Part shown: positions 1-62,971 of the stretch, piece by piece
How positions within the stretch are numbered: the stretch's first letter is position 1
Layout: each line of letters begins with the position of its first letter
Assembly (NCBI GenBank): GCA_963969365.1
Contig: OZ017750.1
Span: 2,356,001 to 2,420,000, forward strand
DNA: 64,000 bases
Reading direction: 5' to 3'
DNA from: Asterochloris sp. CNOR1
Lineage: Eukaryota; Chlorophyta; Trebouxiophyceae; Trebouxiales; Trebouxiaceae
Translations under genes and position numbers: made by a program
Notes under the pieces: generated by a model
Databases searched by the model: none
What the model was told of the DNA's origin: nothing
The model's input: the letters and a program-made list of their open reading frames with translations, nothing else

Positions 1-3000
1 ACCATCAGAGGCATTCTGAGCCTGCAGCTCTGTGATGGCCGCACCTGGACCTGCCCATCTCGCCGCTTGATCTCAAGAATGATCTCTGTGTACTCATCTT
101 CCGCTCCTTCACAGCCCTGCACATTGTTAGCCCAAGCTTGGTGTGTTAGTGTCATAGCACATCTGGCACTTGCTGAGCAGGGGAGGCCATACAGAGCTAA
201 GTCGTCTGCACACAATGGGGAGCTCTATCAGCAGGAGACACCCACCCGCACATCTCACAAACTTACTCTCTCATGCCCCAAGCCCAACCGGCGGCAGGTC
301 AAGGGTGGCATATCCTTCCCCAAAAGCAGCTACGTAGCTTGCCCATAATGCCATGCCCAAAGCCTAGTGAGCGAGCATGCATCTGCCCAAGGTGCTCCAG
401 TAGCCCCTCATGCAGTCTACCGCACACAATCATGGCTAGCTAGTACGGCCACACTGCCCCAACAAAGAGCCAGAGCCTGTCCCCAAGGCAGGCCCCTGCA
501 CACACCTGCCTACGCAGCAGCTTATACACCTTGCCACCTCTGCTCACAATCCTGGCTGTTGTAGCCAGCAGCCTGGCAGCCACTGACCAATGCAGCAGCT
601 CTGAGCCTGACCCCCTCAGCGCCTATCTCACAGTCCCTGTCATCCCTCTCAGGCTGGAGCAGCAAATCCTCAGCCCAAGCACTCCTGCGCCAGTCAAGCC
701 CCCACCTGCTCAGCAGTGCCCTGAGTTGGCCGAACAGAACTGCACAGGGAAAATCCACAGCGTCCCTGAACAGTTCAGTGGATCTGCTCAAGCATCCCAG
801 CAGCAGTCGCCCACCTCGGCCAGCAGCGTCCTGAGCATGTACGTCGCAGAGCCGTGCAGCAACGCGGAGGCCCAGCAGGCATTCAAGCAGACCCCAAAAC
901 ACTCCTTCAATGCCCCACCTGCCAGTCAACGCCTTGCAACCTTGGCTGGATGGCGCTCCTCCTGGCGCCAGCATGTGTCGCCAGCAGCTGGACACAACAA
1001 GCCCAGGCAGCACTGCCTGTTCAGTAGCATTGCCTGCCTAGCAGCATTGCCTGGCCCTGTCAGCAGCTTGCCCTCCCAAGGAGCCCACCGAAAGGAGCCC
1101 ACCCACCTGCACTCCCCTCAATTGGGCACCCTAACACTAAGGCGCCCCTCACAGCAGCCAACAGACTCCAGCATCGCCTCTGTCACCTCACCTGCCCAGT
1201 CAGTGCTCTGTCCACCTTGCTTGGATTCTCCTTCTCCTCGCGCGTGAACTTTCGCTTGACCTCCCGCCGCTCGCGCTCGCGCCCAGTCCATCCCCGCAGC
1301 TTCATGCGCGAGTTCAGGCGCTGAGTCACCAGCTGAAAGTTGGTGCCAAAGATCTGGAGGGCCTGCACAAGGAAAGGCAGCCTGTCAGGCAGGGGACGCA
1401 CTTCAGGCGCTGAGTCACGGGCTGTAAGATGTTGCCAGAGATCTGTCTGCGCAGGTGAAGGCGTGCTGTTGGGCAGGGCATGCACTTCAAACAGGCAGCA
1501 GCTGGACCATGGGTCTGGGACTACTGCTCAGGAGTAGCTGGGCTGCTTTGCGGGGCATGCGCTGTTCCAGGCACTGAATGGCCACCTGGAATTTTGGGGC
1601 CAAGGGCTGCAGGGTTGCCTGTCTTGCAGGGATGCGCTCCTGCTGCATGCTGTCTGCCTGACTCAAAGCAAGTCCAGGAGGGGCAAAGCACTGGGCGCAT
1701 GCTGGAGTCAGCTGCCACGCCTGCCAAGCCATGCCCGCAGCTTGAGAGGCAACAAGAGTTGTCTTCCTGTGGTGCCACCATGGCATCCTGGACATTTGCG
1801 GCCGGCTCAAGCTCTTTGCAGCCAGCCGCCAGAGCATCTGCCCTGTGCTGTCAGTCCATAGGGCCCAAGCAGCAGAGATGGAAGACCTGCACGCACCACC
1901 TGGCAGGCTGCATGCATCCCTGCCCATGGACTTGCAGATCAGCCCCCCCACACCCGCACTGCCACAAGCAATGCTGGCCTGCACTGCGGCTGGCCTCACA
2001 ACAGCAATTGGAGGTCCCCACCTCCTGCGATCAGCATTGGGGTCCCCAGCTTTGTAAATCAAGACAGGCACCGCCACAGCCAATGCTGGTCTACGCAGCA
2101 GCCAGGCTCACTGCATAAAACTCGCTGGTTTCCTCCTGTGACCAGCGTTGGGCCCCTGGGCGATTGCGGTAACTGTCCTGGGTCAAGATGGTCGTGTCGT
2201 CATTGGCCATGGTGTACGTCTGCACAGGGCAGGGGCAGTAAACCTTCAGCAGGCTGGGGCACAATGACCATGTTGACATGCAGCCCTGGCTGTGCAGTGC
2301 ACCTTTTGTGTGGGGCAGGAACCTGGATGATGTTTGAACGCAGGGCACAAATGCAGCATTGCAGGCCACCCCAGCACGCAGCCTTGCCTGTGCGCCCTTT
2401 GTGCAGGACATGCTCACTTGCAGGGCTGTATGCTGGGGCAAGGTGGCGACACCAGCAGCAGTGTGGCAGTGCAGTGCATTCTTTGTGAAGAGCACAAGCA
2501 TTTGAGGTGCTGCACGTTGACATGCAGCATCAGCGCTGCAGCTGGCAAGCTGTCCTGGCGGAGCCTGGTCCTCCAGTCCCAGCAGCTTTTGGCAGGCGTG
2601 CACCTGTAAGCTAAGGTGCGCCGGGCAGGGGCCAGTGCATGCAGGCGTGGCAGGCACAAGTGCCGCATGTTCAAACCTTCAAGCGTGCCACTGTGAAGCA
2701 CATTCTTTGCAGCAGTGATCAGCAGCAGCTGTGTGCAGGGTGCTCAAAAGCTGGCTGCCCCGCCTCCCACCTCTGCTGCCTGTGCTTGGATGGTGGTCGT
2801 AGACTCGTCGACGATGATGTTGCCATCTGCATCAAAGGTGATGCCTGGGGCAGTCTGCACCTCGGGCGGCCGGGAGGGCTCTCGCCGTAGTGCGCCGTCC
2901 CTGCCCCTCACCTTCAGCTGCACGCAAGGGACAAGGTTAGCAAGTGCTTTTGCAAGCAGTCGTCCTGAGGAGGCTGGATTGTTGAATGTTGCATTGTACG

Positions 3001-4994
3001 ACAAACTTTGCTGCCGCAGGCAGGAAGAGCACTGCCTGCAGGGCGCAGGCAGAGCCTGGCGCCAGGCTTCAATCAATCATGATTGGGCAGGAGTGAAGGT
3101 GGGTGTAAAAAGAGGGGCACATGCTTGTCCAGCGCAGAGCTCCGCAGAAGGCAGGCCATTCCCATAACACAGCAGAAAGATTGGTTGAGCTTTTAACAGG
3201 CTGCGCAAGATGCAAGCATCAGGTTGGCCGCACAGCACAGTGAAGAGGGCAGGTGAGCTCTGGCAGCCAGCGCAGTCTGTAGCAGGCCGGCACCTTCTCT
3301 GTGTGGTCTGTTCTCTTGTTGCTGCGGGCGTTTGCCACGCTGCAAATCCGCTTGAGACTCATGGTGTCCAGGTCAAGGGGCTGCTCTGCAAGGGCGGCAC
3401 CACGCTTGCGCTTCCCACCTGCCCTCCCTGTGCAGGTGGCAGCAGTCCAGCTTCAGCTTAGTGGGACGCCATTGCTGGTGAGCATCCAGGTGGCAGGTGC
3501 ACTGCGCTGCCAGGCTCCCCAGGCAGGCTGCAGGCTTTTGCTGGGGGTGCAGCGCTGCTGTCACATGCAGGGGGCAGCTGTGAGCAGCTCACAAGCAGCC
3601 ATGGCCCAGGACAGCAGCACGCCCAGCACATGCTGGCGGCGCCACCAGCCCTGACTGACTGGCTGCCTGCCTGTCCCTGCAGTGAGCCCTGGCTGTGCCC
3701 ACTGCTGCTGTGCACCGCAAGCATCCCCTGGAAGCAGGTCAGTGGTGACCCACCATCCCGCCGCGTCCCCACTGCTCCCTCCTGTGTGCCGTCTGGCTGC
3801 TCCTCAAACTGCTCGGCCACCACAAGGGCCAGCGCGTTGGCTTCCCCATCTGGCGAGTCTCCTGGGTGCAGACAGGCCGGCTGCTTGGCAGACAGGGCAG
3901 CTGTTTGGCTTTGGCGGCCGCATGCTGCTCACTTTCTTTCGCTGTCTCGACTCATCATGATGGCTTGATGCCACACATGCACAGCCGTCTAGTGCCATGC
4001 AATCAGCACATGCAGCAATCTGCAGCCATTTGCAAGACAAGTCCCACCTGCTGCTGCCGCTGCCTGTGCTGGGCGTCGAGGATGCTGTGGATTGGGCCTG
4101 AAACGCTGCATAGCAACAACATCGACATGTGGGGGCGTCAGACTGCAGGGGCCACCCTGCACGAGTCAAAATGCAACCCAACAGATTGCAGGGGTGACAA
4201 GGCAGTCCACAAAAGCATACACAAGCCCTCTGTCGCGGTGCTGCCAGGGCACGCAGATCACAAGAGCATGGAGATGCATGCGAGCCCTAATTGAAGCCAC
4301 TGTGCGGGCGGGCATGATGAACCTGCGGGTGCGCACCTTGTTCTTGGCCTGACTAGGACTGCTGGGGCCCGCCTCTGCTCCATCCGCTGTTGCCGCCTGG
4401 CCATCAACCTCCAGCGTGTCCTCCTGAGCGCCTTGGCTAGCAGACCTGCCGCTGGGCTTGGTGGGGGTGGCCCGCTGAGTCCCACCTCCTGCTTGATGCT
4501 GGCATGGAGATGCCTGCTGGGAGGGGTCAGCATTGGGCTGGCCGCCAGCAGTGGCTGCTCTGGTGTCTCCTGACGGCTGGCTGGGCTGTGAGGTGGGCAG
4601 CCCTGCACGTCACAGTCAAGCAGCCTCATAGCAGGACCCAGCAGCAGTGCAGAAGATCATGGGACCTTGATCGAGCCCTGCTCATGGGACACGTGATGTT
4701 CTGTCACAACAGTGGCTGAGAGGTCCCATCGTCCTCTCCTGCGACCAACTCACCTGCTTGCCCATCTGCCTGCACATTGCTTGGAGTGGCTGACCGTGGC
4801 CTCTGCACAGCAAGTCACCATTGTGGTGAGCTTGTCATACCAGAGACAGCCGTTGTGACCATGCTGCACAGCATCTGCCTTGTATCACTGGCACTGTCAA
4901 AGAAGCCCATGATCACCGGACGAGCTCTGGGCCTGAGGCCTGCTGTTTTCAAAGCCGGCTGCCCAGCATTTGGAGTGAGGAAGTCAAATTCCAT
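1..4994 (-). CDS. BDP1: TFIIIB component Bdp1 (B''), 3' end cut by the window edge
   Basis: Bdp1 is the SANT-domain subunit of TFIIIB, which recruits RNA polymerase III to tRNA, 5S and U6 genes. Exons that keep one frame through every junction (minus strand): 4917-4994, 4754-4769, 4337-4602, 4048-4084, 3754-3861, 3294-3418, 2771-2917, 2112-2219, 1192-1362, and one starting at 116. The protein begins MEFDFLTPNAG and soon has the AGLRPRARP segment typical of Bdp1 N-termini. Exon 2771-2917 carries ITFDADGNIIVDES, matching the DG-I-DE motif just before the SANT domain. Exons 2112-2219 and 1192-1362 encode the extended SANT domain (QRWSQEETSEFYA, then ALQIFGTNFQLV and KRKFTREEKENPSKVDRAL). The loop between the last SANT helices looks about 8 residues longer than usual. 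The 16-nt second exon rests on splice phase alone. The last exon's end is unresolved because the window stops. Family identification is secure. Confidence 0.9.
1192..1613 (-). repeat. Two degenerate copies of the Bdp1 SANT-exon start in the preceding intron
   Basis: The true exon edge lies near 1313-1370. Similar segments recur at about 1401-1455 and 1566-1613, in the same orientation. They keep the order of the acceptor, the IFG-coding stretch and the QRL-coding stretch but are diverged. Seen by eye only. Confidence 0.6.
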
Positions 4995-17700: not shown

Positions 17701-18438
17701 CGTGGATCCCAGCGGAGGCAGCTTCAGCGTGGAGGTGGGTTCCTGCCACTGCACTTATACTCAATCAGTGCTTTGCACTGACAGCTCAGGCGAACAGGTG
17801 CAGCCTGCCCTGCCCCTGCAGTCACCAGAGTCAGTTCACCACTGAGGTGACTTCCTGTCACTGCCTGTACTGCATTACTGCATCCCTTACTTGCAGCATG
17901 CCCTCACGGCTGCGGCAGACAAGGGCAGCCTGTTCGATGTGCTCACGGCGTGCCACAACAATGGCCTGTGAAAGCCTGTTTGATGCGCTCACGGCGTGTC
18001 AAAACAATGGCCTGTACTGGTGAGAGGGAAGTGACCACCCGTGAGCCCTGCTTGGGGTGAAGCATCAAGCGGGACGAGTGTGCATAAAAGTTACTACAGG
18101 GCGGACCCCTGCAGCCAGTAGCATACTGGTCTCCTGTGCCGCTGCTCAGAAGCATCATCTGCATTGCATCCAGCACCTCACCCTCCAAGTCAAAAGTCAT
18201 GTTGACTCTTGTGCAGGTGGACTCGTCCACCGGCAGCGGCGTGCTGACCTCCAGCGCCAGCAGCCACAGGAAGAAGGTCAACATTCGCAAGGGTGCCCTG
18301 AAGCGGCTGAGGCAGGCCGGCACCTGGCTGGACAAGAAGTTGGCTGAGATAGAGCACATAGACGCCTCCAAATCACCCTACAGCAACACCAATGTAAGCA
18401 TCAACGAGTTTTTCCCAAGCGACTTTTACCGGCGGTGA
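11704..18438 (+). CDS. Large armadillo-like repeat protein of unknown function, 5' end unresolved
   Basis: In-phase exons: 11925-12111, 12291-12406, 12485-12616, 12769-12865, 13463-13637, 14135-14261, 14707-14838, 15233-15357, 15630-15777, 16001-17184, 17492-17734 and 18217-18438, giving at least 960 residues. An upstream exon at 11704-11826 also fits in phase but is less certain. The first half has armadillo-type helices, for example ITAVATLLQLLHTQ with EAVHAASNTLKQLA, and HNLVSILARPSRQMQQAAV with HALASLAHR. The 1184-nt exon encodes a low-complexity region rich in Gln, Ala, Pro and Ser (polyglutamine near 16750-16910). The C-terminus is basic, then ends SINEFFPSDFYRR. Such scaffolds bind partner proteins, but I recognise no named family. 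An exon at 17897-17971 would add a different C-terminus ending in a stop. Confidence 0.7.
17897..17971 (+). other. Possible alternative terminal exon of the armadillo-like gene
   Basis: After a CTTGCAG acceptor the frame encodes HALTAAADKGSLFDVL and then TACHNNGL before TGA at 17969-17971. It joins in phase to the exon ending at 17734. The next exon (18217-18438) also joins directly to 17734 in phase, so this may be a cassette or an alternative last exon. The stop lies at the junction of a 46-bp tandem duplication. Confidence 0.45.
17927..18018 (+). repeat. 46-bp tandem duplication across an exon edge
   Basis: Copies 17927-17972 and 17973-18018 differ at only about six or seven positions. 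The period is not a multiple of three. A donor-like GGTGAGAG follows the second copy. Confidence 0.85.
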
Positions 18439-18894
18439 CAATTCGTGCAATTCCCAGTGGGAGAGAGGTATTGTCGCTGCACCTTTAAAGCATTTTGGCC
18501 AGGCCCCTTGCATGCTGGCCCACCTGTGAAACTCATATGAGTCCTCATCCAACTGGTTGTCCCCATGGACCCTTGCGCTGCGGTACAAGGGTCTGTCAGT
18601 AACCAACAACCACCCCTTATATGTTCAAGTGAGCTATAGCTATGATGACCATCTCCAATCCCACTCTTCCTGAGACCCTCTTGCTCTGGTGCCAGCTCCA
18701 CAACTCACGCAGCAGTCCCTGCTGAGTTGGGACTGCACCCATATGAGGGCCCCGCTTTCTGCTGGCCCACTGCTGATGGGGCAGCGGAGCCCGGTGCAGT
18801 GCTTGCCAAGGGGTAACCTCTTTGTTGAACTTTTGAGTCAGGACTGGGCTTCTGTTTTGTTGAATCATGCATCTGTAAAGGCGCCAAACAAGCG
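18439..18894. other. Convergent intergenic region between the armadillo-like gene and SLBP
   Basis: 3' UTR space of a plus-strand and a minus-strand gene. On the plus strand TGTAA occurs near 18873-18877, inside a sequence that recurs near 19013. No further exon seen. Confidence 0.35.
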
Positions 18895-18954
18895 TCACGC
18901 ATTGCCAAACTCATGTGCGTCACCAAAGATGTCATTGGCTAGCTGCTTGCCAAG
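18895..18954 (-). repeat. Second, diverged copy of the SLBP terminal exon
   Basis: On the minus strand this reads DIFGDAHEFGNA then TGA at 18895-18897, against DIFGDAHEFDDV then TGA in the exon used by the model. The similarity continues past the stop into the 3' flank (a GCATGATT segment in both). It may be an alternative last exon or a relic of duplication. Confidence 0.7.
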
Positions 18955-19033
18955 GGCTGACTCCTCCATGAAGTTTATTTTTTCACAACTCTGAATTTTT
19001 CAATCATGCATTTGTAAGCAACCTGAAACAGTG

Positions 19034-46100: not shown

Positions 46101-49100
46101 GCTCAGGCACACTCACGTGTTGATGAGTGCAGCAACGCTCCACAGCAGAGGCAGACTACGCAGCAAGCTATCCTCAGGCAAGGCACAGCACATGCCATTG
46201 TCAATGTTCGCAGGGCATTTGCAGCGCACCAGTGCTGTCTGCAGGAGTCCAGCACTCCCGGCTGGCAGCTCTGCTGAAGTTCTTGGCAGACCGGGTGTGC
46301 AGGCAGGCTGCAGCCTGGATGGTCACCATGGCTGCCTCTGCTGAGGCAGCCATGTGTGGTGCCTGAGAAATGGGCCCAGCTGTCTGGGTTTGTGCCAGGG
46401 TTTGGGCTACCTGGCAGCACAGGCTGACGTAGTTCTCTGCAGCCACATCGGTGCTGTGGGAGGGTGGCAGGCTCAGGCTGAGCACAGGTAGCAGCACCTG
46501 CAGCCAAAGGCAACAAATAAACGCCAAATTCATGCTCTAATGCAATATGAAGAGAGGCTCATCAACAGGCTGGCAGACCCTGGCAATCTATGTTGTTGAA
46601 TGCCCACACCACATGCCCCCGTGCATGACTGCGCCCCTGGCGTGCCACTTTGAACAGCTTGTCTGCCAGTTGGGTGCTCCCCAGAGGTTGTACTCATGCA
46701 CCTGCTGCACCCAACAGCTGTTTATCTCTGAACATCTGCAGCTGCTTACAGCTCATGTTCTGCCCCTGCCGCCATAATGCCGTGGCGCAGCATTCTCACC
46801 TGCCGCACCAGCGAGCTGAGCATGACCATAACGTCCTGCAGCTGCTCTGCTTCCAGGCTGTAGCCCAATCCGCCCAGCAGCCGTCCCAGGGCACGGAGGC
46901 CCAAGCGTACCCCGCTGCAGCCCGTGGCAGCTCCGGCAGCTGCAGGCTGCTGCTGCTGCGGGGGCCCAGCTCCCGCCACCAGCTCAGCTGCGGCCGCGCT
47001 GGCTGAGCTGCGGATGGCTAGGTGGCACATGTCTTCCAAGAGGAGCCTTGCCTGCTCCAGGTCTGTAGCCTCCAGGGCAGCCTCACTGCCTGCAGGTGAT
47101 GCCAGAAGGCTTGGTACAGGCAGACTGACAGCTCTGCAGGTGTGGGGTCAACATGGGCTGTGCAACACAGAGGTGCTTGGGGATCAACAACTTGCAGGCA
47201 CACTGCGGACTCTGCCACATCAGGTACCAAGTCGGCATTCCATGTGCAAGACCAAACATGGTCAGCAGCATTGTACCATGCAGGCTGAAGGGCAAGCTGA
47301 TTCCTGGCGCACTGCCCGCTGCTGCCTGCACAGGACCTCTTGCAGGGCAAGGCAGCTGCTGGCTGTCTCAAGTCTGCTGGGTGTCTGAAGTGCGCTGCCC
47401 ACCTTGAGCGTCGCTGCTGGCCGCCACAACTGCTGAGGTGGCGTCCAGCACCACAGGCCAGGCATGAGCCAGGTAGCGCTGCACCCGTTGCACCACCGAC
47501 AGAGAGGGCACGGCAACCAGGCGTGGGCGGTAGCTTGCATGCACGCCTGACGGCTGCAGGCCCAGCACTGCGTGGTCCTGTAGCAGGGCTGTCCACAGCC
47601 GCAGCAGTTGCCTGCAAACAGCAAAGGGGACGAGATCTTCGACACAGAGCGATACTGTGTTGGCCAGGAGCAGCGCTATCCAATGAGCAGCCGCTGCCTG
47701 CAGAGAGACAGCAGCATAGAGGCACAGCATCACCCAATCAGAGCAGCTACATCCTTCACAGATAGCATGCACGCCTAGCGTAAATACAGGGGCTGGACCA
47801 GTCACATTTGTTGGCGCAGCAGGTGCAGGCCAAGCACTTGACAAGTCAGCCCCTGTGCTTTTGCATGAGGAAGCTCCACCTGCAGCAGCTAGCACAGGGC
47901 CCTTCTGCATACAGAGCTCAGCCTTGGTGAGGCACGCTTGCTCCAACCCCACGCTAGGGGGCGGCCAGATCAGCAGGGTCAACATGCAATGACCAGCATT
48001 GGAGGCTGCAGGCTTAGACAGTCTGACTTACCTTCAACACCCTGCAGCACTAGCCTCTGGTCTGCGTAAGTCTTGACCACGCACTGACAGGCAGCCAAGT
48101 CTGGCCCCTGCAAACCCCGTGAAGGGTGCGCATGACACCACCATAGTCCCCACCAGGTGGCGCAGCAGGTGTCGCAGGGCTGCACTGCACCGACAACTGG
48201 TGCAGCAACCACAGGACCTACCTCTGGTGCGGCGCCTGTGCTTTCACCACGCACTGACAGGCCGCTGAGTCTGTGGTGGCGCCCGCAAAGACGGCGCAGT
48301 GTGCGTGTGCCTCCAGCAGAGCCACAGTGGCCCTCACAGCCACCCACTCAGCATAGGCCGCTGCCTGAGCTGCCCCCGCGTCCTCAAGACGCGCTGTCAG
48401 CAGAGACATCAGGCGCCCCAATACGGCTGTGTCGCTCGTGGCCAGGCCCTGCTCCAGGAAGGCTGCTGCCAGGGACGCCCCTGCAGCACCCTCTGAGGGG
48501 GCAGCTGCTGGAGATAATGACGATCTGCAGGAAAAAGGACATCTGCACCACTTGCTGCGTTGGTCCTTCTAAGCACGTTGCTGGCAATCAGGCCACGCTT
48601 CGCACAGGCTGCTGCCAGTGAGGACCCTGTCCTCTTCAGTGGGCAACAGCAGGCGACACACGACAATGTGGCAAGGATGCTGTTGATCCGTGGTCAGTGC
48701 GAGAGGCGCCTGTGGAGTCCTTGGGAGGGCACACAGGGATGCTCAGTCTGTTTCAAAAAACTGCAATATGACAGCAGCATGGCAGCCCTGATAGTGTAGT
48801 GGTTGCGCCCGCGCAGGTCAACATAAGTATGGGCTGACCCTGCAGCCCAGCCTGCACGAGGATGGGGCACCTAGCTGCACTATTTGGCCAGCATACTTTG
48901 AATCAGTCAGGCGCACCTAAGAGCAGACACAAACTGGGCCTGGTGCTGCTCCAGCAGCAGATGGCCCTCCAGAAGAGGATCCTCAGCCTGCCCAAAGTGC
49001 TTCAGCACTGTCTGCACCAAAAGCAGGTGGTTCACCTTAGGTAAATGAGCCACTTTCTGCTGCACCTCATCGAAGATGAAGCACTGAAAGCACAAGTGAG

Positions 49101-52100
49101 CCTCATGCATGCTGTGCAGGGGGCACGCTGGAAAATGGGTATAAGTCACTGCTGTGCAGGCTTCACAGGTGCCAGCCGGCCTTGCAGCCAGATTTTGGGG
49201 ACACTGTTGTGGCCTACCGAGGTGTGACCTGGCGTTGCACTCAGGCAGGCAAGCTGCTGTTGCGGCTCACGTAGGCGCCCTGCAAAAATTGCAGTGCAAG
49301 AGTGCATTGATGCGGCCCACCTTGAGCAGTCGCAGCCCCATTGGCCGCAGAGCCTCCACCTGCCCCGTTGCCATCTTGAAGGCGATGTCGATCAGCATCT
49401 GGAGGCGCAGCACCAGCCAGTCTCCGCCTGACCCTGATGCTGCCTGCAGCAGTGCAGGCTCACATGCTGGACGGGGAACACTTACACTGCCTGAAGTGCG
49501 CGCAGCCATCATGTGCAGCTCTGGCTGAGAGTCGGTGTGGCTTTCCCTGCTCAGGGTTGTTGCCAAGTCCATCACTTGTTCCCCACGGGGGGACGACAGA
49601 GCCAGCTGCAGCTGCACTACTTTGCATACTGCACCACCTCCTGGCAAGGCCATACACATTCTCATGTCAGGCATGTGGATTGTGGTACAAACACAGGTGT
49701 AGGTGCAAGCAAGCGCCGCCTTAGACGGACTCAGGTCACCAGGACTGGGGACATCCATCACCTGAGCCTTCACGGCGTCAAAGTGACGAGGATCCCCCCC
49801 CGTGGCAGCTGGCAGGTCCAAGATGCAGCTGGCGGCAAAGAGGCGCGTCCGCAGGCGGGGCGTGGCAGCCAGGGCACGACCGCCTGGCAGGCTGAGGGCT
49901 GGCAGCACTCCACTGGCGTCTCCAGAAAGCGAGCCAGCTGTGCCTGAGTTGCCAGCACCTGCACAAGCGCCCAGGCAACGGGAGAGACACTGTCATTGCT
50001 TTTGCCAGGCTCAGCACATACCTGCTGCCATCGACAGGCCGAAATGGGTCCCCTGTGGCCGGAATAAAACATCACAGAAGCATGACGCAGGCAACCTTGC
50101 GGCAGTGATGCACATCCTGCATTCATGGGCCCTGCTGTGCGCATGTGATGCAGTTGACGCCCTGGCCTGTCTTGCTGGCACTACAGGCCCCTTGAAATTC
50201 AGAAGTCAAGCCGTAAGTAAGCACCCACCAGGCAGACCCATGATGCCAGAAGGTAACCCCTCAGGAACTGTCCCCCCTCAGGACCTGTGGCAGGCACATG
50301 CAGCAGCAAATGCCGATGGCACACATCAGGCAGGGCCCTCTAGGCAGCCCCATGTTGCTGTCACAAACAGCACACAAGCAGCGGCAGCAGCACCCACCTG
50401 GCACTCCCGGTGCATCGGCATGCTCCCTCGACAGCGATCGCTGCAGCCCATCCTCGCCGGCGCCACCCCCCTCATCCCCGCTGTCCTCGTCAGCTGACCC
50501 AGCATCCTCCTGGGCCAAGCCTCCGTCACTGGCAGGGCCGCTGCGACCAGTCCCCAGCTGCCCCCCACCGGCGGGCGCGGCGGCTGTGGCGGCCAGAACA
50601 ACATCACCTTGCACAGCACAGGTCGGTCGCATATGAGTTGGAGGTCTGGGGTCCAGCTTGCGAGTGCCAGTCCATACCCCTGAGAGTGCTGCCAGGCCGC
50701 TGTAGACAGTTGTCATTTGGCAGTTGCAACAGCTGTGCTGGGTAAAACAGATCCCAAGCAAAGCAGTGATTTGAGAGCATCCAATGTGCAGAAGTTCAGC
50801 AAATCCACATTCAAGACACCTTGACAGTGCTCAGTATGAGAAGCCACGGGAAACTGTCTGGTGCGCAGCACAGCTGCAGACAGAGCTGCCTTCCAGCAGG
50901 CTGTGTCCAAATGTGCCAAAGTGCCCTGATGTTTGGCGTGCCAGACTCCTGTTTGGAAGCGCCTTTCAGAAGGCATTGAGGGTACAGAGCTCACCACACA
51001 CGCTGAGCCAGTAGCCAGGTTCCTGCCCCGCGCCCGCGCCCAGCAGCGTTGCCAGGATGGCTTTCAGCTGGGCACTGCTGGCGCTGTCACTCTCGCCATC
51101 CAGCACTGCAAACAGGCGCCGCTCAATGCGGGCAGGCAGGATGGCCGCGGGGTCCTGCAGGTGGGCAGCAGCAGCAGCAGCAGTTGGTGACAAGGCAGCA
51201 TGGCAGACCAGCATATGTGTGTGCACGCAGGGTGGGGCGATGGGGTGGTGCAGGTAGCAGCAGGTCGGAAGGCAGCACGGCAGACAGGCAACGGCGTGCA
51301 CAGGCAGCCACTGGCAGCAGATGGTAAGAAGGCCACGTGGCGGACAGGCAATGCTCTGTGTGCGTCCTGCACATGAGCAGCAGCAGCAGCAGTAGCTGGT
51401 GTGGTCGATGAGCAGTGGGCATCAATGCCTCACCTGGGTAGCTGAGGCAAGCAGGTCGGGCAGCAGGCAAAAGGCTTACAGGCTGGGAGGAAGCAGCCTG
51501 TGGGCATCCTTCAACTAGTGGGTCGGTGGTACACAAATGGCCATGTGCTTGCATCTGCTTACCCACATGGTGCAGGATGGCCACAGCTGCTTGGCGCAGG
51601 AGATGCTGTTCTTTTGGGTCTTGCATCACCAGAACAAAGCATGAAGCTCATAACAAAATGTGACCCACCAGCCTCTCCCGGATTCCACGAGGTGGCTGCA
51701 CCTGCCTGGCCTGCTGGACGCAAGCAGACTTGACTCCCAAAGCTCCTGCACACCTGTTCTGCCAGGTGGCGAAGAGTGGCTGCAGCTGCTTGACGCAGAG
51801 CTGGCTGTCGTGAGGCCAGGTTCGCCAGCAGCAGGGGCAGGTGACTGGGCGCCGGCACCGCGTGCGGTGCAAACAGGATCAGCATCTGGGCATACAGGAC
51901 GGTCTCCAGCTCTGCGGCCGTGATGTCCCCTGGGCGCAGGGTGCTGCCTGCTACAGCATTGGAGGCCTGCGTCGCATGGCAGGTCATGCTTGTGTGGACA
52001 GGAAAGCAGGCAGGACAACATCAGACCAGTGGGCAGATCACAGCCAAGAAGAAGCATGCGGATTCCCGAGGGCAGCGAACGGCATCCAGAGAGTTGGAGA

Positions 52101-55100
52101 CATGCGCCATGTACATGATGCAGGTTTCACACCGCATGCTGACAATGCGGCCTTGGCAGTTGTCGTGCGCCCAGCTGCCACATGGTGGACGCCAAGTACC
52201 CACAGAAAGCAGTGCAGACCACACTCATATCTCACATTCCAGGCTGCTCAAGGATGGATGCACCCACCCATTGGCAGCACACCGTACCTGCATTTCGCGG
52301 ATGAGGCTTTTGCAGGTGTCATAGGCCATGCTGCCTGGAGACAGCTCGGGGCCCAGCAGGGCCACCATGGCATTGGCCAGGCGTCCCACAGCTGGCCGCA
52401 GCCCTGCCACGCTATAGGCCTCCTCTGACAGCAGCAGCTGCAGCCCCAGGCGCAGGCTTCCCTGCAGGCAGGTGCCCCCCCTCAGCTTGAGAGCAAGCTT
52501 GGGGGAAAAGACAGGCAGAGCCAGCGTTTGCAAGCCGTGCTGCGCATTGCGCAGTGGCAGGCAGGGTGGCAAAGAGTGACCTGCTGGCATTTGCGCCCAA
52601 TGCTGCACTGCCCAGACGCTGCCAGGCAACAGGCCATCTTGTCATGCTTACACAGCTGGGGCACCGGCTCACCCGGACGTGCGGCACAAAGGCCAGCCCA
52701 GCAGCGTTGGCTGTCAGCCACAGCCCGTGCAGCGCCCACAGCTGAAGGGTGCCGCGCCCCTGCTGGGCCACCGCGACGAGTGTGTCAGCGGTCGAGGCCA
52801 CTGCCCTCTGGAGGGCCATGCCCCCCTTGCTGCGGTAGATGCAGCCAGCCGCCAGCGCAAGGGCGGCACGCCTGCAGGCAATGGGTGCTGCTGACTCGAC
52901 CTCGACTGCTGCAATGCATCTTTGCTGCTCAGCTGTCTGCCACCAGACCAGTGCTCAAGAGGCAAGGCTGGCAGGTCAAAACTCAACCCCACAGTTGAAT
53001 AGTGGGAGCCAGGCAGCAGGAGGCGGAGGCTAGGAAAGGGCAACTTTTCATGAGGTTAATAGCCTGCCAAAGGCCAATCAAACAAGCAGCAGAATTTGAG
53101 CCATCATCTGGAACTCGGATACCAGGAACACTCACCCATGCACTGAGCTAGTCTGAGCCATGTCGGTGCAGATGGACCGCACAAGCTGCACAGCAAAGGC
53201 GTCGCTGCCAATGCAGGCTGCAAAGGCATACATCTCTGCAGAGGAGCGCATGAGAGCAGGATCCCCTGTCTGGGCAGCCTCCCCCAGTACAGCTGTGGCC
53301 AGGCCACGCGCCTTGTCACCCACAAAGTCGCGGCTATTGACCTCGCCTGCAGCCAGATGCAGCCTCAGGTGCTGTCCTGAGAATGCTGCGATTTGCACAG
53401 GTATGCACGCAGACTGCCATCATGACACCCAGCAAGCATCCATGCAACATTGTTTGATGAAAAAGGTAAGGCACCAGTTGTTCTCATGCAGGAGATAGGC
53501 TTTGCATCAAGCATGTGGCATCATCTCTGATCAGACGTACAAGCACGTCCAGTCAGGCAGAGTTCCAGAACAGACAGGGTTGATGACATGCAACCTGCAC
53601 AATGATGGCTCACCTCTGTATTTGTGGGCAAGCACGTCTAGGCCAGCCAAAGCTGCACAGCAGACAGATGTGACAATGGCGTGGCGCCGGGTGCCGTCTT
53701 TCTCTCGCTTGCGCCCCTGGCCGCCGTCTGCGGCGCTGATCAGAACCTCCAGGATCTGGAGCTGATTGGCCTCATTCACCTGCACACACGCACGGTGGCT
53801 GCAGCTGTCAGCATGGCCTGCCCAGGAGGCAGCAGGCTACACTCATGCCTCAGCAGGTACGGACCAAGCGTCAGGCAGGGCAGGTCCAGAGTAGGCAACC
53901 TGGCTTTGTGAGTGACAGAGCTGGCTGGCAGGGGTGCCTGCCGTGGCACGGCACTTGTAGCAGTGCATATGCAAGCCACCAACTGCCCCTCTAGATCCAC
54001 ATAAAGGCAAATCATGAAGTTTTTGCCAGATCTCAAAGCATCGGTGAATGGACTTGGGCCCTGCAGGCGCTCACCACGGCCAGCAGGTTCCCCAGCAGGA
54101 CCAGCTGCGCCTCCTGCAGAGCTGCTCCCAGCGACTTGGGCTGCGGAAAGGGCGAGTGGGTGCCCTTGATGTGGCTGTCACCTGCAGGCATATGATCCAT
54201 GCTGCATACAGCGCTTGTTCATCAGCAGCATGGCAGACTGCACCGTGCAGACCACCTTGACCTGGAGTTAGCAGGCCTCGGACATGCCACTGCAGGTCTG
54301 CCTGGCTGCCCTCACGCACCCCTGAATCCACTGCCAGGCCATGCAGCCATGGAGCTCACGGAGCCTGCAGGTATGTGGCAATCTGCCTCAGCCTTCATGC
54401 TAGGCCGGCACCTGCTCACTCACTGCTGCTCCTGGCGTTCAGCAGCCGGGGCCAGGCCTGGCTGAGACAGTGAACAGAGCGATCTGCCCTCAACACCTGC
54501 CTCGAGGTGGCAGTTGCAGAGCCTGTGTCTGCAGGGCCCTACAGCAGGGCAGCGACTGCATTGCTCATCCCTGCAGGCTCACCGCTGCTGCCAGCATACC
54601 CAGCAGCCAGAGCCAGGCCAGCCTCCCAGGGGTGGTGGGGCGGACCCCCAGCTGCGCCTGCAAAGGCTTCCAGTTGATCCTCCAGAGGATCCTGCCCCTG
54701 GCTTGAGGGCACCAAGACAGAGTCCTGGCTGTTGAGGAAGGACTGGACTGCTGTATTGGCAATGGCAGCGGCCGCCCCTGCACGCAGACAATGTAGGTAC
54801 AGCGCTGCCGTGGAAGCACAGGGACCAGGGCAGGCTGTTTGGGGCAGGACTGCACTGCGCTGTTGGTGACAACACCTGAACATGGTGCTGCAGTGGCAAC
54901 AAGGGTACTACTTGCTGGACAGACCGATGCACAGACAAGAGCCAACTGAAGATAGCTGCTGCGGAGCACCTGCACAGTCATTGCACAGGAATGTAAGGGC
55001 CGTCAAAGGGCTTGCTCGCCAGGCAGGGCATCCAAGAGGCGTCACAGGCGCACTCACAGAGGGGCAGCGCTCTTAATTAGCTCTGGACACCAGGCCGAGC

Positions 55101-58100
55101 GGCACGGAAGCAGCTTTTGCACACCTGCTGCAGCCACTGCAGGCGAAGACCCTCTGAGGGAGCGGGCGCACAGCTTGCTCAGGATCTCGTGCTCAGGGGC
55201 AAAGGCATTGGCGTTGGGCAGCTCCAGGTAGACCTCCAGCAGGCGCAGCTGCAGTACGCCTGCTGCCCCAGCAAAGAGGCTGCTAGGGCCAGCCCGGCTC
55301 CTGCTGGGGTCCTGCACGAGGAAGGCGGTGAGCTATGCTTAGTTCTTGGATAACATTATCAGGCCTCTGTTCGCTGCAATTTGGCTGCTGCCACCGCTGC
55401 GGCTCCTGCTAGGGTCCTGGAGGGCCCATCTCAGGGGTCGGGGGATCATAGGGACGCAGACTGTGACACAAGACCAGGCACATTCATAGGCCCCTGCCAA
55501 GTGGCAACCCTGTAGCATAGCTTGAGTGTAGGCTACGGATCATGATTAAAGTCACCATGAAGCAATCAATGTGAGTTCTGCAAGCAAGTCCCGACCAGGC
55601 CCGCTGAGGGGTCTCACCATGATGGCAGGTGCACTGCTGACGGCATCTAGTGTGGGCTGCAGGAGGGAGCCAATCGTCTTCTGCAGGCGCACGGACTCTG
55701 AGCGCCCAGCCTGCGCCAGGGGGCCCAGCACAAAGGCTCGAAGCGCCTCCAGGGCAGACCCCCGCCACCAGAGCTCGACAGCCATGGCAGCCTCATCAGT
55801 CTGCGGGGCATACAAAGGCATCAAATCGGCGTGGCACACATCATGACAGCTGAGTGCCAAGACAGCCTTGCCACCTCTGCACTGCATAGTGGGCATGCGA
55901 CACCACTGCACCTCTGTGCCGAGGCAGTCATCTGTCTGCAGGGAGATCACTGCTTTGCATGCAGGACAGCTTGCATCAACACAGCTCAGTGCCACAGCCC
56001 CCTTGTCAGACTCTGCCGTTGGCGTGCTGACACAAGCACAGGTCTGTGCTGGAGTGGCTTCATCAATTTGTTGAGTGCACTGGGGATGCTGAGACTCATG
56101 CACAAGATGCCATGTCGCTCTGTGTGCTGCCCAGCCCGATTGTCAGGTACGACTACGGGAGCAGCATTGAGTTTGTTGGTCTGGAGTGCTGACTGGCAGC
56201 AATGTGGCGTGCTGTGGGTGATGGCTGACACGCCAGCTGCTCCCGTCAAGCACGTCGCTGCATTCGCCCTGCGGAAAAACCCGAGGCGTGCCTGCACAGG
56301 GAGCGGTTGTGAGCAGCCACGCCGCACGTGACCACCCACCTGCCCAGAGTTCTGCTGCTTGGTCCCGCTGAGCTGCAGTGCCACCTCCGGAGCCAGAGCC
56401 GTCTGCCACAGCTCCAACAGCTGCACCCGCCGTTCCTGCATGGCAGTCCAACAATCAAGCCTTCCTTGCCCACAAGACCTGCCCCGCTGAGCATCAGCAC
56501 CCCTTGACTCCTGCCCAGGAGGGACTGCAGGCCGGGGTGCCCTGAGCCCTCCAAGCAGGCAGCACACACCAAGGCTCACATAGAAGCCCAATCAGAGCCC
56601 CTTGCAAGCCAAGCAGAGCTCCCACACACACCATTAGCACATCTGGGGGCAGGCTGAAGCAGAGGCCCCCCAGCAGGATGAAGCCTGCCTCCCGCTCCAC
56701 GCTGCGCCCCACAGGTGCCCGGCAGTCTGGGTGCTGTATCAGGCGTGCTGCCAGGTCCAGTGCTTCCAGCAGAAGGCGGGACGGCACCCCCAGAGGCATC
56801 CTGCACAGCCAAGCTCCACAATCAGATTGACAGGTAACATCTCCGGCAGCAGGCAGGATGGCCGCCCTGCAGACATGGCAACGCTTCACACAGACATGAC
56901 ATTGGCAGATGCAAGGGCCTCCAGCAGAAGGCGGGAAGGCCACAAAGACATCCTAGAGCCAGCGTTTTCTAGCCCTGACAATCCCATCAGGAATCTGGAT
57001 GGCATCTTCAGAGCATGAAGGCAGAGCCAAATTTACGGGCTTTCGGCAGCAGACAGAAGGGTGACCCCAGCTGCAGTCCGCAGGTGGAGCCAGACAATGC
57101 CAGCGCTGGTTTGCCAGTGCCGAGTCGTACTCTGTCTTGTAGATGGACACATCAGGTGTTGTGGGAAAGGAGGCCATCCCTCTGATGGGGCAAATTCAGG
57201 AGAGTATCTTACAGGCAGTGACTTGGTGAAGCCTGAAGGAATCAGATAACCAAATGCAAAGGCAGCGCACCTTTGTGAGGCCACCAGCAGTGCTGTTGCT
57301 CCCAGGGCCAGACCATTGACAGCATGCATGACTGCCTTGGCCTGGTCTTTCCCCTGAGGCCCCATTGCCCGGGGGGTGCCCGTCCCAAGGCCAGTGGGGG
57401 CCTCTGGGAGCACATTGCTGGCCCCAAACGGAGCCGTCAGGGATGCCAGCTGCTTCACGGCAGCCACCAGCCGCTCCAGAACCTCTTGCAGCATCGTTGC
57501 TGCTGATGAAGGCTCAGCCACTGCTAATGCTGCCAGAGCAGCTGCAGCCTGTAGACAAGCAGGGTGCACAGGTCAGGGTGTTGGGTGCCTGAAGGCTTCA
57601 GTTGGCATCGATGTCACCTGCAAGACATGCTGTCACCCGCATCCAACGCCAATGGGTGCAGTTCAAATAAAGATGTGCATCAGTACAGGTTTGACTGTGA
57701 CAAGGAGAAGCTGCTGCCTCCCAGCAGCCTCATTGCTTCTGTGTGGCAGCCAACGTTTGACAGCAAGAAGCACTATTGGCATGTTTGTAGCCATCTGCTG
57801 CTTCCAAAGATGTTGTGCAAACGTGGCTCTGTTGACCCTCTTCGACGTAGTGCTTGCAGGCTGCAGCAGCTTGCGTGTTATCTGTCCCACACTGGACATG
57901 TGCAAAGGCACAGCTGGGCTGCAGCCAACACGGAGAAAGCACTGGGAGCTGCAGCAGCGCCCATCAGGCAGCCCCCACACACTGCAGTGCGTGGAGGCTG
58001 CTTGCAGCCTGCACGTCACCCACTCTTGTGCAGTGCTGCCACCATGGGCTTGAGCCGCAGCAAGGCAGCCTCCAGTTACTGCTGTGCATGCAGATGAATT

Positions 58101-61100
58101 GCAGTCAGCATGCCACCCACCTGGGAGGCAGGCTGCAACTAGCTTGTCAGACATGCAGTCTGCCAAACTTCACCAGCACCCTTGATTTGCATGCAGCCCC
58201 GTTCCAGCCTTCCACTGACCTCTTCTGTTACCCAAACAGTATACAATCCGGGCTGAGGTTCCCGAGCAGGTGGCCTTCCTGCTGTGCCAACCCCACTGGC
58301 AACCTGCTTTGCGGCCATCCACGAACCTGGGTGCGAAGGCATAGCTGGGCTGCAGCCAGCTTGCCAAGCAGGGGCTCCCGGGTGGTGCCAGCTGCGTCGC
58401 TAGGGATCTCCCCCAGCACCTCCAGCAGCAGTGCCGTGGCCTGGAGCGCAACAGCGCCCACAGGAACATGTGCGCCCAGCACGCTGGCCAGGATGAGGGC
58501 CAGCTTGTCCAGCATTGCACGCTGCAAGGCAGGGCAGTTAGTTGGTTGGGCAGGACAAAGTACTGCTGCAGCGCAGGGCAGATGCAGGGCCACTGGGCCT
58601 GAGCATGATCCAGCGCAGGGCAGGCTCAGCAACACTGGGGGTAGAGTCTCTGGGACAGTGCAAGCCAACTTGTGGGCTGTGGGCAAACAGGTGCTGGCGC
58701 AGAATGAGGGCCAGCTTTTCAAGCATGGCGTGCTGCAGCTCGGCCAACCCTTGGTCGAGGCAGTGATGATCACGACTTGCCTGTAGCAAGGGCCATCACT
58801 GTGGCTCCTAGTCAGCAGCTGGGGCCTTCATGGTTTTTGGAGCAGTGACCCACCTGCCCAGCCTCGCTGAGCTGCTCAATCACTGCTACGCGGAGGACAT
58901 AGATTATGCTGGCCTCAGCATGGGGCAGCTCTCCAGATGCGAGGGCACTGCCAATGTCAGGGTCCCCAGGCCCTGAGCCTGCACTGCCTGAGCGCACTGC
59001 CAGGCTGGCAGTTGAGGCTGTGCTGAGCGCCTCCAGAAGGCGATTGGTGAAAGAGATGAGCTGCTGCTCGTCTGCACCTGCCTTGGCCTGCAGAGCATGG
59101 AGCAGCACATCCCAGATGAGCAGCAAAATACATAAGCTCAACGAATGACATGAACTGCTGCCCATCTGTGCCTGCTGTGGCCTGCACAGCGTGGTGCCGG
59201 CTCATCAGGCATTCTCTGCTGCTTGACTCAGATGTCTCACAGACTCAGGCCAGGTGTTGCTCACCAGGGCACTCATGCATGTAGGGGCTGACGGCTTCTG
59301 TTCATTCAGTGTGCTGCTTAGTGTCAGACATTTTGGCCTAGGTCGCCTGGCGCACCTTAGGCCAAGCTTGTGGAGCAGGCATTCAAATCAGCTTGCACAC
59401 CTGAACAGTGGCAATGTAGGTGGTCCACGAGTGAGCCAGGCTGCTCAGTGCATTCCTGTCCTCAGCCGCAGCGGCGCGCTCAAAGGGGCCGCTCAAACAG
59501 GTGCCGGTGGCGGTGCCCAGCAGCCGCTCCAGGTGAGCTTTCCTGGAGGCCTTCTTCTCGAGCCCCTTGACCTGTAGCAAGGGGCCATGTGGATTTTGCT
59601 TCAAAAGAGGTGGCTGGACTGAAGCCCTCTTGAGGGACACTTGACCTGCAATGGGCTGCACAGCAGGGGCCTGCGAACGCCCCTGCGCCCTTATTGCAGA
59701 GCTGAGGTTGTGCTCATGGCAACCGGTCAAGGTGGGCTCTTCATGAAGGCCTAATCTTGGCCCCTCGACCTGCGCTGGGATGAAGTGCAGGGTCTCACAA
59801 AGGCCTACCATCTGTGAAAGGCGCTCAGCCCAGCATTGCACTTCACATGAGGTGTCACAAGCCACTCTGCCACGTCAACAGGCTGCACAAGCCCCTGCTA
59901 TGTGCTGAAGTGAACCAAGCCTGCACGGTCCCCGCTTTGTGGGCACTCAGAGAAGTGACATGCAACCAGTCGTCAAGCTCAAGCTCATGTGTGGTCAGCG
60001 ATGCAAACAGCGCCTCAACACTCACCGCCTCCTGGGTGCTGGTGGATCTGGCCACACCGCAGCTATGTTTCCCCATGCTGCTGCTCTGTGTGACTGAATG
60101 CATTATGAATCACTGCACACAGACCGTGCGCACTCACCGCCTCCTGGGCACTGGTGGAGACTGCCGCCGCAGCCATGTCCCCCAGGGCTGCTGCAAAGGC
60201 ATCGCGCACAGCCCGCGCCGAACTGCCCAGCGCTGTGCAGCACACGCGCACAGCGTCCTCATACCCAGCCCCAGCATTGGCCCACAGCCCCGCGCCGCCG
60301 GCCTGCGCCACGGCCCTGACCACGCCGGCTGCCGCCACACGCAGGGCATCAGGGGCTGCCCCATCTCGACTGTACCTGCATGGACAGCAAGGCTGCTCCA
60401 CGATTGCTGTCTCAGCAGCCTGTCCAGCAACAGGGGACTCTGGCCCAGCTTCCTGACTCACAAGGACTCCATCTGCATAACAAGAACGTCGCCTAGCCGC
60501 AGTAGTACCGGGAATGCTCCCCATTGCAGCTGCACTTGCAGATAAAGCAAGGAGGGAACTGATGCAGAACCCTGCTCTGGCCTGTCCCAGAAGGTTTTGG
60601 GTCCGTCCTTGAGCGCGCTGCAGCCTCAAGCAGGGCGTCTAAGGTTGCCCCAATACATCCACAGATATCTAGTGGACAGCAACAGGCTGGTCAGAGAGGC
60701 TGCATGCACAAGGCGTCTGGGGCTGGCCCATCTTGGCTACACCTGGAGACAGCTTCCCAACCCCTGCAGGCAGTTTTGAAGAGATGATGGCTTTGGAAGC
60801 ATATTCTGGCTTGCACAACAACACGTAGTATCACTGCCTTAACAACCAGCACCTTACCTGTCAGCAGCCCGAAGCGCGTCCTGCTGCACTGTCAGGCTGC
60901 TGCGGCCACCCTCCCCCAGGCCTGCAACCACTGCTGCCACCAAGCGCAAGGCCATGGCCTGGATACCCACCTCAGAGCCCCTGCAGGCGGAGAGCAGAGG
61001 TTTCGTGTCATACACCAACTGGCAAACTGCTGTTACACATCCCAAGCACTGTCCTCAAGGAGGCAAGCAAACCACTGCTGGATGCCCAGGACGCTGCAGA

Positions 61101-62485: not shown

Positions 62486-62971
62486 TTGGGGCAGGCGGGG
62501 ACTTCAGTGCTGTGCCTGCAGCATATCGTGAAGCCTGTTGGAGGCCACTGCCACATGATGGTCCACAAGTGCGATTTGGGGCAGGAGGAGGTGCCTGCAG
62601 CTTGACAGCAGGGCTCTGTGTGGCTCGATTGCACAGGGGTGGTTGACCTCTGCCCCCTATCTTTGCTCATGCCAACAGATAAGAGGGACCTCAATCTGGA
62701 CCTAAAGCGATGTGCTGCAGCATCGTTGCAGACGGGGGCATCAGTTTGCTGCAGCAAATCTTCAAGCTCACCACCTGAGTTCCTAGTGAAACATGGCAAC
62801 AGGCGAAAGCACCTCCTTCAATCAACATCCTGAAATGTTTGCTGCAGCACATCGAATATCAGAAACACCATGAGGTAGATGCACAGATGGCCATTCTGCC
62901 ACAGCTGGGGCCCCACCGCCAGCTGAGCCCTCAACCATCGTGTGATGGAAACCTAAGCAAGCACACACAGC
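62486..62971. promoter_or_regulatory. Divergent region between the HEATR5-like gene and the small lysine-rich gene
   Basis: 486 bp between two outward-pointing starts. It holds a diverged copy (about 62558-62583) of the HEATR5-like start-codon segment (62466-62490). No TATA box or other core element was recognised. Confidence 0.4.

Follow-up and report, generated by a model that had tools for sequence, protein, structure and literature searches.

Worn copies of exon edges in the introns of Asterochloris sp. CNOR1, probably remnants of old, repeated tandem duplications

Several introns in a 64,000-nt stretch of the Asterochloris sp. CNOR1 genome (OZ017750.1 of assembly GCA_963969365.1, positions 2,356,001-2,420,000 of the forward strand; the window) contain sequences that resemble the edge of the neighbouring exon. 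A first-pass annotation read them as diverged exon-edge copies left by intron growth, which raises the questions of whether such copies, here called echoes, are real and how they arose. Genes were modelled with a gene finder trained on RPC1-homology seeds, with an exon penalty added, giving 54 models with 576 predicted exons, 136 of which were left out before the counts on score or length. The 60-bp edge of each exon was compared with the intron beside it, and swapped introns provided the null. Introns below 70 bp were excluded (512 of 522 were retained for the edge test); edge queries were limited to exons of at least 45 bp and interior queries to exons of at least 140-150 bp. The distance profile and the protein-support and long-intron counts covered only introns long enough for a 220-bp target. 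The set of repeat pairs comprised 252 after removal of low-complexity and overlapping pairs. A search of the window with Rfam at gathering scores gave no match.

Worn copies of exon edges are present in introns in the same orientation as the exon, also outside the window. At p<=0.01 an echo was detected at 74 of the 791 scored edges, where swapped introns predict 7.9: 26 of 188 edges within the window were positive, as were 48 of the 603 edges in six 40-kb stretches taken without selection, the rate ranging from 4/105 to 26/188 between stretches. As the annotation had it, donors (38/395) and acceptors (36/396) alike have copies on their intron side, with about 4 expected in each case. Controls stayed near background for the reverse complement (2/791), the exon interior (7/424), the far edge (1/424) and, at p<=0.02, the intron on the wrong side (3/409; 1/230 and 2/179). 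Among window edges whose junction is supported within 9 bp by homologous RPC1 or HEATR5 proteins, 16 of 85 were positive. Local direct repeats with offsets of 15-300 and a score of at least 18 numbered 216, compared with 1 in dinucleotide shuffles. At coding borders without a splice site the excess was smaller (5/76 at p<=0.02), and in intergenic DNA it was almost absent (13/487 vs 2%). The introns and exon ends are rich in TGC/CTG and the splice consensus is strong (CTGCAG/G and CAG/GTGAG, the slash marking the junction), but an origin by chance or composition is contradicted by the swapped-intron, reverse-complement, far-edge and wrong-side controls and by a Ts/Tv ratio of 0.83 in echoes against 0.56 in chance alignments, and we consider it practically excluded.

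Gene models with positive edges in the window are those of Bdp1 (fused with MoaE), syntaxin, SLBP, RPC1 and HEATR5. Four of the five genes named in the annotation, Bdp1, SLBP, RPC1 and HEATR5, are thereby confirmed; in the fifth, an armadillo-like gene, none of the splice edges is echoed at p<=0.01, the one signal being its stop-codon edge at 18438 (p=0.013). The gene finder joined Bdp1 to MoaE in a single model. The edges of RPC1 exon 38801-39026 were set by tblastn of the homologous proteins P0001/P0002. The copies are as follows.

1402..1445, minus strand: acceptor-edge echo of exon 1192-1362 (in the Bdp1 portion of the joined model), offset 89 (blastn)
1556..1614, minus strand: second acceptor-edge echo of Bdp1 exon 1192-1362, offset 253
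18895..18969, minus strand: copy, located downstream of SLBP, of the stop-codon edge of its final exon (19034-19087; blastn 18851-18947 / 18990-19083)
19613..19646, minus strand: donor-edge echo of SLBP exon 19806-19964, offset 217
19722-19755 (offset 107) and 19453-19472 (offset 391), minus strand: further donor-edge copies of that exon
20128..20170, minus strand: acceptor-edge echo of that exon, offset 206
29635..29680, plus strand: acceptor-edge echo of RPC1 exon 29866-30062, offset 231 (p=0.005; protein-supported junction)
31753..31777, plus strand: donor-edge echo of the RPC1 exon ending 31703, offset 74
34736..34761, plus strand: donor-edge echo of the RPC1 exon ending 34658, offset 107 (junction without protein support)
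35020..35041, plus strand: acceptor-edge echo of the RPC1 exon starting 35111, offset 94 (junction without protein support)
37380..37414, plus strand: donor-edge echo of RPC1 exon 37221-37332, offset 104
38801..39026, plus strand: exon of RPC1 (RNA polymerase III largest subunit), both edges echoed
38189..38201, plus strand: weak acceptor-edge echo of exon 38801-39026, offset 612 (another copy at 38104-38133)
38446..38487, plus strand: acceptor-edge echo of that exon, offset 357 (gapped similarity about 60-70 bp further into the intron)
38700..38725, plus strand: acceptor-edge echo of that exon, offset 106
39089..39099, plus strand: weak donor-edge echo of that exon, offset 92
39184..39209, plus strand: donor-edge echo of that exon, offset 188 (24/26 identical)
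39273..39306, plus strand: donor-edge echo of that exon, offset 284 (30/34 identical, 0.88)
39382..39407, plus strand: donor-edge echo of that exon, offset 384
48073..48103, minus strand: donor-edge echo of the HEATR5 exon ending 48222, offset 170
51563..51708, minus strand: donor-edge echoes of the HEATR5 exon ending 51754, offsets 84 and 199
54320..54463, minus strand: donor-edge echoes of the HEATR5 exon ending 54583, offsets 161 and 279
56842..57075, minus strand: four acceptor-edge echoes of HEATR5 exon 56632-56800, offsets 77, 155, 218 and 277
57900..58149, minus strand: donor-edge echoes of HEATR5 exon 58327-58521, offsets 217, 251 and 431
58700..58729, minus strand: acceptor-edge echo of that exon, offset 211
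62538..62588, minus strand: first-exon (start-codon) edge copy of HEATR5, upstream of the gene (blastn 62448-62498 / 62538-62588)

The best-preserved unit is the Bdp1 echo at 1402..1445, with a blastn alignment of 93 bp at 75% identity. At the RPC1 echo 39273..39306 gapped similarity runs on into the intron to 39343. The SLBP stop-codon-edge copy was called as a separate mini-ORF by the gene finder.

Three near-identical repeats, which the annotation had counted as 46-, 33- and 137-bp exon copies, turned out to lie inside introns (in the 137-bp case probably so).

17927-18015: near-identical repeat of 46 bp, no exon edge inside
27780-27845: near-identical repeat of 33 bp, no exon edge inside
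43544-44074: near-identical repeat with a 166-168-bp unit, probably the 137-bp case, no exon edge inside

Compared with 5, 6 and 5 nearby exons, respectively, they gave no match (smallest p 0.24). With these cases intron-internal and long young pairs too few, the continuum from near-identical to barely visible copies that had been described at exon edges is not supported. Intronic minisatellites and tandem repeats are arrays of short units, and the young 46-, 33- and 166-168-bp arrays of the window are of this kind; the edge arrays, unlike them, straddle splice borders and are strongly decayed.

The presence of echoes is associated with intron length. None was found in 82 introns under 150 bp, against 35 of 89 above 500 bp, with 5/107, 11/101 and 19/99 in the classes between, by rising length; at p<=0.02, 91 of 506 edges in introns of at least 240 bp were positive. 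With about 9% of edges positive at p<=0.01 and the shortest introns free of echoes, the description of introns as filled with copies was too strong. Edges commonly carry several copies: 41 of the 74 have at least two echo places (mean 1.82 vs 0.26 in swapped introns), and once the best echo was masked a second was still detected at 14 of 74 (p<=0.01; 0.7 expected). Offsets form series such as 92-188-284-384, 94-187, 96-191, 105-212 and 77-155-218-277, and a further copy with a score of at least 9 occupies half- or third-point positions in 13 of 55 cases, compared with 7.3% at random offsets. The offset mode is 80-120 bp (41 of 110 edges with an ungapped score of at least 12). In three overlapping sets of 71, 104 and 107 the best periods were 100, 96 and 128 bp (p=0.03, 0.09 and 0.03, respectively), so that a period of about 95 bp is suggestive only, one of the sets preferring 128 bp. 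A model of intron gain in which an exonic AGGT segment is tandemly duplicated, so that the intron in its entirety copies its flanks, would share the probable involvement of tandem duplication; however, its offset should equal the intron length, as it does (within 12 bp) in just 1 of 74 echoes, and we rule this model out as scarcely credible.

The echoes decay neutrally. Mismatch is nearly flat over codon positions 1, 2 and 3 (0.210, 0.219 and 0.242), 42 deletions and 41 insertions were counted, and the splice dinucleotides left near the junction (GT in 9/17, AG in 14/22) are close to the 0.6 or so expected from identity squared, as would follow if the exon copy is free to decay, which the annotation had proposed. 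The persistence of these dinucleotides might point to functional echoes, that is, alternative or decoy splice sites under selection. Yet their retention about equals the neutral expectation, the codon-position mismatches and GT/AG counts revealed neither coding-type constraint nor above-neutral splice-site retention, and offsets have no in-frame bias (20/74 divisible by 3); we regard functional echoes as very improbable. The third-position mismatch ratio of 1.13 falls between those simulated for exons evolving at 0.2 and 0.5 times the neutral rate, which together with the ordinary substitution spectrum makes it unnecessary to suppose that copies were born already mutated.

Most edge events appear to be old. 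Young tandem repeats yielded ten rows (nine arrays), and an exon edge lies in two of them, with units of 45 and 65 bp; few edge copies being young, the process looks old. Under a steady-state model, long, young pairs should be far more numerous than they are. The scarcity of young border-crossing units leads us to reject steady-state duplication and therefore to assume an old pulse.

The exon part copied is typically the last 40-60 bases of the neighbouring exon. Echo probability is highest at the junction (21-26% for the -40 and -20 queries), approaches background by 80-100 bp into the exon and is 8-10% just inside the intron. Similarity on the intron side is weak (median p 0.44-0.48), with 12/72 (80-bp flanks) and 11/72 (40-bp flanks) at p<=0.05 where 3.6 are expected, and 9/67 in a further count where 3.4 are expected; it is clear in a few cases, such as the gapped alignments at RPC1. 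In the subset with identity of at least 0.8 and a score of at least 18 it was found in 0 of 18 at p<=0.05, and on the exact diagonal outside the matched segments identity is at background.

The anchoring of repeats on exon edges is borne out in that echoes are edge-specific relative to the controls, but part of it is owed to survivorship: a position-blind duplication simulation gives junction, exon-only and intron pairs as 303:192:619, near the observed 64:41:98. Could local tandem duplications of 50-250 bp (unit equal to offset), of all ages and blind to position, suffice, with anchoring due only to purging from exons and slower decay of exon-echo pairs? Such a general model fits the category counts and fails on age and exon reach: it predicts an interior/edge ratio of 0.38-0.62 at any age, where 0.05 or less is observed, and 58% of intron pairs (offset of at least 75) at a score of at least 35, where 8% is observed. 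These results contradict it in this simple form, and it is very unlikely to be correct; single random duplications of 150-200 bp were likewise rejected by simulation. Units of about 97 bp iterated over the border and then left to neutral decay, with the coding copy spared, reproduced most, not all, of the profile, the fit being relative to the -40 bin rather than to the absolute rate. For exon sequence 80-40 bp from the junction this simulation gives a relative 0.34-0.36, compared with an observed 0.11 (14/333). Randomly placed breakpoints within the unit were not borne out, the exon part being shorter than predicted at -80; the over-prediction implies that units are more junction-centred than random breakpoints yield.

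This shortfall is among the observations that would suit a mechanism aimed at the border, in which junction-centred fragments of about 50-80 bp are copied into the intron without a contiguous tandem unit, for example by templated repair or by slippage, in connection with co-transcriptional splicing or R-loops. The peak of echo probability at the junction with near-background values 80-100 bp inside the exon, the lack of extension on the exact diagonal, the 0/18 on the intron side of the best-scoring subset and the near absence of repeats from intergenic DNA also agree with it. Against it, the several copies per edge in near-regular series and the intron-side similarity of the best-preserved cases fit contiguous units, start and stop codon borders are in some excess too, and coding constraint by itself makes exon edges conspicuous. 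We consider such a mechanism a minority possibility.

On balance, the echoes are probably decayed remnants of old, repeated short tandem duplications over exon-intron borders that lengthened the introns. A tandem unit, mostly of about 70-130 bp with a mode near 95, would arise in the DNA straddling the border and would often be re-duplicated into small arrays. The outer, original splice site would continue to be used, and with the transcript thus intact the inner copy would become intron and decay neutrally, the intron growing by one unit in each round. Echoes would look exon-anchored because selection removes units inside exons, because the near-constant coding partner keeps exon-echo pairs recognizable for longer than intron-intron pairs, and because units of about 95 bp cannot extend far into the exon. 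The near absence of an excess in intergenic DNA speaks against this reading, being unexpected for fully general duplication, though intergenic pairs also fade faster. Intron growth by repeated border-crossing tandem duplication, as first put forward, is partly supported, by the arrays, the long introns and the occurrence on both sides of exons; the simulation fit is incomplete. Tentatively, and with more doubt than conviction, borders may even be hot spots of junction-centred copying with a step near 95 bp, this lineage's introns having been assembled stepwise out of their exon edges during a past burst.

Introners and transposon-driven intron gain alter intron content genome-wide, a trait in common with the echoes, each of which, however, resembles its own exon more closely than swapped introns do. 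To our knowledge, intron lengthening without transposons is poorly known. In the ATP2A1 case of Hellsten 2011, as described in PMC3443670, in-gene tandem duplication of an exonic AGGT segment produced a new intron; duplication within the gene and right-copy splicing that keeps the protein intact are shared, whereas here existing introns appear to lengthen and copies recur at the border. The internal gene duplications of Gao and Lynch 2009, as cited in PMC3443670 and PMC4974935, are likewise segmental but include whole introns with flanking exon, unlike the 40-60 bp of exon edge found here. The potato RdRp duplication over an intron-exon boundary (intron 3' end and exon 5' end; PMC4974935) shares the geometry of our acceptor-edge units; as described there it is a single recent case giving a new intron and an exon insertion, whereas here many old, decayed copies lie in one longer intron.

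Intronic pseudo-exon ends can mislead gene finders and protein searches, as with the SLBP mini-gene and with the RPC1 echo matched by tblastn of homologous proteins at 39272-39322. If introns hold a dated record of their growth as worn edge copies, its rate, unit size and time could be read from single genomes, and how far duplicated splice sites are tolerated could be tested on a large natural sample.

Using a direct edge test, we compared 60 bp at the end or start of each good exon with up to 450 bp of its own adjacent intron, taking 200 swapped intron pieces as the null (lowest reachable p per edge, 0.005). At p<=0.01, 74 of 791 edges carry an echo, that is, a diverged copy of the exon edge inside the intron, vs 7.9 expected, in counts where edges of one gene are not fully independent. 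This bears out the first-pass annotation, which had proposed same-orientation copies at both kinds of border: 38/395 donors and 36/396 acceptors are positive, and the reverse-complement control recovers 2/791 edges. Exon sequence 60-120 bp inward was positive in 7/424 queries, and the far-edge control in 1/424. When matched at p<=0.02 with the intron on the wrong side of the exon, donor edges gave 1/230 positives and acceptor edges 2/179.

The sample comprised 304 kb, or 0.54% of one genome (56.4 Mb, 21 contigs, introns present): the window (G000:C5:2356001-2420000, on contig C5 of the host genome G000; 59% GC) and six 40-kb stretches picked blind from contigs 1, 2, 3, 4, 6 and 9. Positives number 26/188 in the window and 4/105, 6/103, 11/88, 5/94, 12/120 and 10/93 in the others. 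Beyond the window, 48/603 edges were positive, with 1/603 for the reverse complement and 5/646 for interior and far edge together. At least one echo occurs in 25 of 51 gene models. Elsewhere in the genome, a recent segmental duplication may account for two helicase-domain matches of equal score (G000:C8:740464-740625 and 751032-751193), which are separated by 10,568 bp. Contig C19 (43,319 bp) carries, at locus L001, a 713-codon open frame whose kinase domain is almost complete and unbroken, unlike the other kinase matches, which run exon by exon; it is possibly organellar or foreign DNA.

The gene models are ab initio: RPC1 and kinase exons served as seeds for a hidden Markov gene finder, which was then self-trained. 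It placed 99% of RPC1 seed bases in the correct frame, these same bases being training data. The splice consensus is CAG/GTGAG for donors and CTGCAG/G for acceptors. The acceptor is unusually strong in window 1-64000 and the sampled loci (T 0.86, G 0.94, C 0.98 ahead of AG). The finder produced 576 exons, of which 440 were retained as good. Pfam supports the syntaxin, SLBP, KTI12 and RPC1 models, as well as MoaE and a Bdp1-type Myb domain, where the finder merged two genes; ARM repeats were weak and under the cut-off. HEATR5 was identified from homologues, the nearest in Botryococcus braunii (51%) and Coccomyxa elongata (50%). The nearest RPC1 relatives are trebouxiophyte green algae: Trebouxia sp. 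C0006 (71%), Myrmecia bisecta (72%) and Apatococcus fuscideae (72%), each over 43-44% of the joined query. Among window edges placed by a homologous protein within 9 bp, 16/85 are echo-positive, so the effect is not a product of the gene finder.

Local direct repeats (offset 15-300 bp, score >=18) number 216 in 304 kb vs 1 after dinucleotide shuffling of 500-bp blocks. With circular shifts of the annotation as the null, a junction-spanning copy is paired with an intron copy in 64 cases vs 23.8 expected, and for each half 0/200 shifts were as high. Intron-intron pairs (98 vs 92 expected) and pairs of exon interior with intron (41 vs 45.5) were also counted; exon-exon or exon-junction pairs fall below expectation.

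The shape of the echoes was assessed with 40-bp queries against a fixed 220-bp target, pooling donors and acceptors, for exons of at least 140 bp and introns long enough.

Query start; positives (~2% expected); observed relative detection; relative detection in the array simulation
-120; 5/333; -0.02; 0.01-0.05
-100; 11/333; 0.06; 0.17
-80; 14/333; 0.11; 0.34-0.36
-60; 47/333; 0.59; 0.57-0.65
-40; 73/324; 1; 1
-20; 72/299; 1.08; 0.76-0.93
0; 26/286; 0.35; 0.27-0.46
+20; 18/257; 0.24; 0.18-0.36

Queries deeper in the intron (+40 to +180) were positive in 74/912 cases. This profile indicates that the echo spans the last ~40-60 exon bases and crosses the splice site. In a second scheme, intron interiors gave 35/650, intergenic sequence 13/487 and long exons 4/127. 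Coding ends that lack a splice site can be echoed as well: the SLBP stop-codon end (IFGDAHEF...; window 18851-19087) has a downstream copy that carries a stop codon too.

Echo offsets have their mode at 80-120 bp (41/110 edges), with 4/110 below 70 bp. Many edges carry multiple echoes, some in near-regular steps, best seen at RPC1 exon 38801-39026: 92, 188, 284 and 384 bp on the donor side, and 106, 180, 357, 535, 612 and also 700 bp on the acceptor side. Echoes at least 150 bp away have an extra copy at half or third points in 13/55 cases vs 7.3% at random offsets. Formal tests for a period were weak, with an unstable optimum: 100 bp at p=0.03 in one set (n=71), 96 bp at p=0.09 in another (n=104) and 128 bp at p=0.03 in a third (n=107).

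Duplications were simulated on the actual gene structures. Random tandem duplication with exon purging and neutral decay gives category counts close to those observed, so much of the apparent edge anchoring is survivorship, the coding copy being nearly frozen. Arrays of ~97-bp units (up to 4 rounds, ages 0.15-0.5 or 0.3-0.5 substitutions per site) misfit at -80, which implies that real units lie nearer the junction than random breakpoints give. Similarity on the intron side is present yet faint: 12/72 and 9/67 cases at p<=0.05, and 0/18 in the subset with the best scores. The tandem reading is weakest here, which leaves some probability to a border-aimed process that copied junction-centred fragments without a contiguous unit; old simulated tandem arrays give 3/34 to 18/51, a span that includes the observed values. 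Single units as long as their offset were rejected (interior/edge ratio 0.38-0.62 predicted, <=0.05 observed), as were steady-state ages, under which long young pairs should abound (58% of intron pairs would score >=35, vs 8% observed).

The near-identical repeats of 46 and 33 bp, and the 137-bp case (probably the 166-168-bp array), were originally read as exon copies. They proved to be tandem repeats internal to introns, enclose no exon edge and match no nearby exon. The 166-168-bp array has three copies (window 43544-44074; adjoining copies 98-100% identical), and its start is 8 bp away from the acceptor at HEATR5 exon 43281-43535; it is a young intronic minisatellite, free of exon sequence. 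Only 2 of 10 young-tandem rows (nine arrays) in the 304 kb contain an exon edge, so the duplication process at edges looks mostly old.

Mismatch between exon and echo at codon positions 1, 2 and 3 is 0.210, 0.219 and 0.242, and the echoes carry 42 deletions and 41 insertions. Ts/Tv is 0.83 for exon-echo pairs, 0.85 for intron-intron pairs and 0.56 for chance alignments. Splice dinucleotides are retained at about the neutral-loss expectation (GT, 9/17; AG, 14/22). The echoes thus derive from the exon and drift freely. Search listings of the open-licence PMC full-text literature turned up no account of decayed exon-edge arrays on a genome-wide scale.

Among 313 sampled introns, 16 form a short class of 70-80 bp (those under 70 bp uncounted), apart from a broad hump at ~180-400 bp; the shortest spacing that is common among echoes, ~70 bp, comes near this class. 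Median intron length is 492.5 bp with an echo (n=70) vs 287.5 bp without (n=262), and echoes occur in 0/82 introns under 150 bp and 35/89 over 500 bp, a link that is partly one of power because longer introns offer more target up to 450 bp. We infer that the echoes record intron growth.
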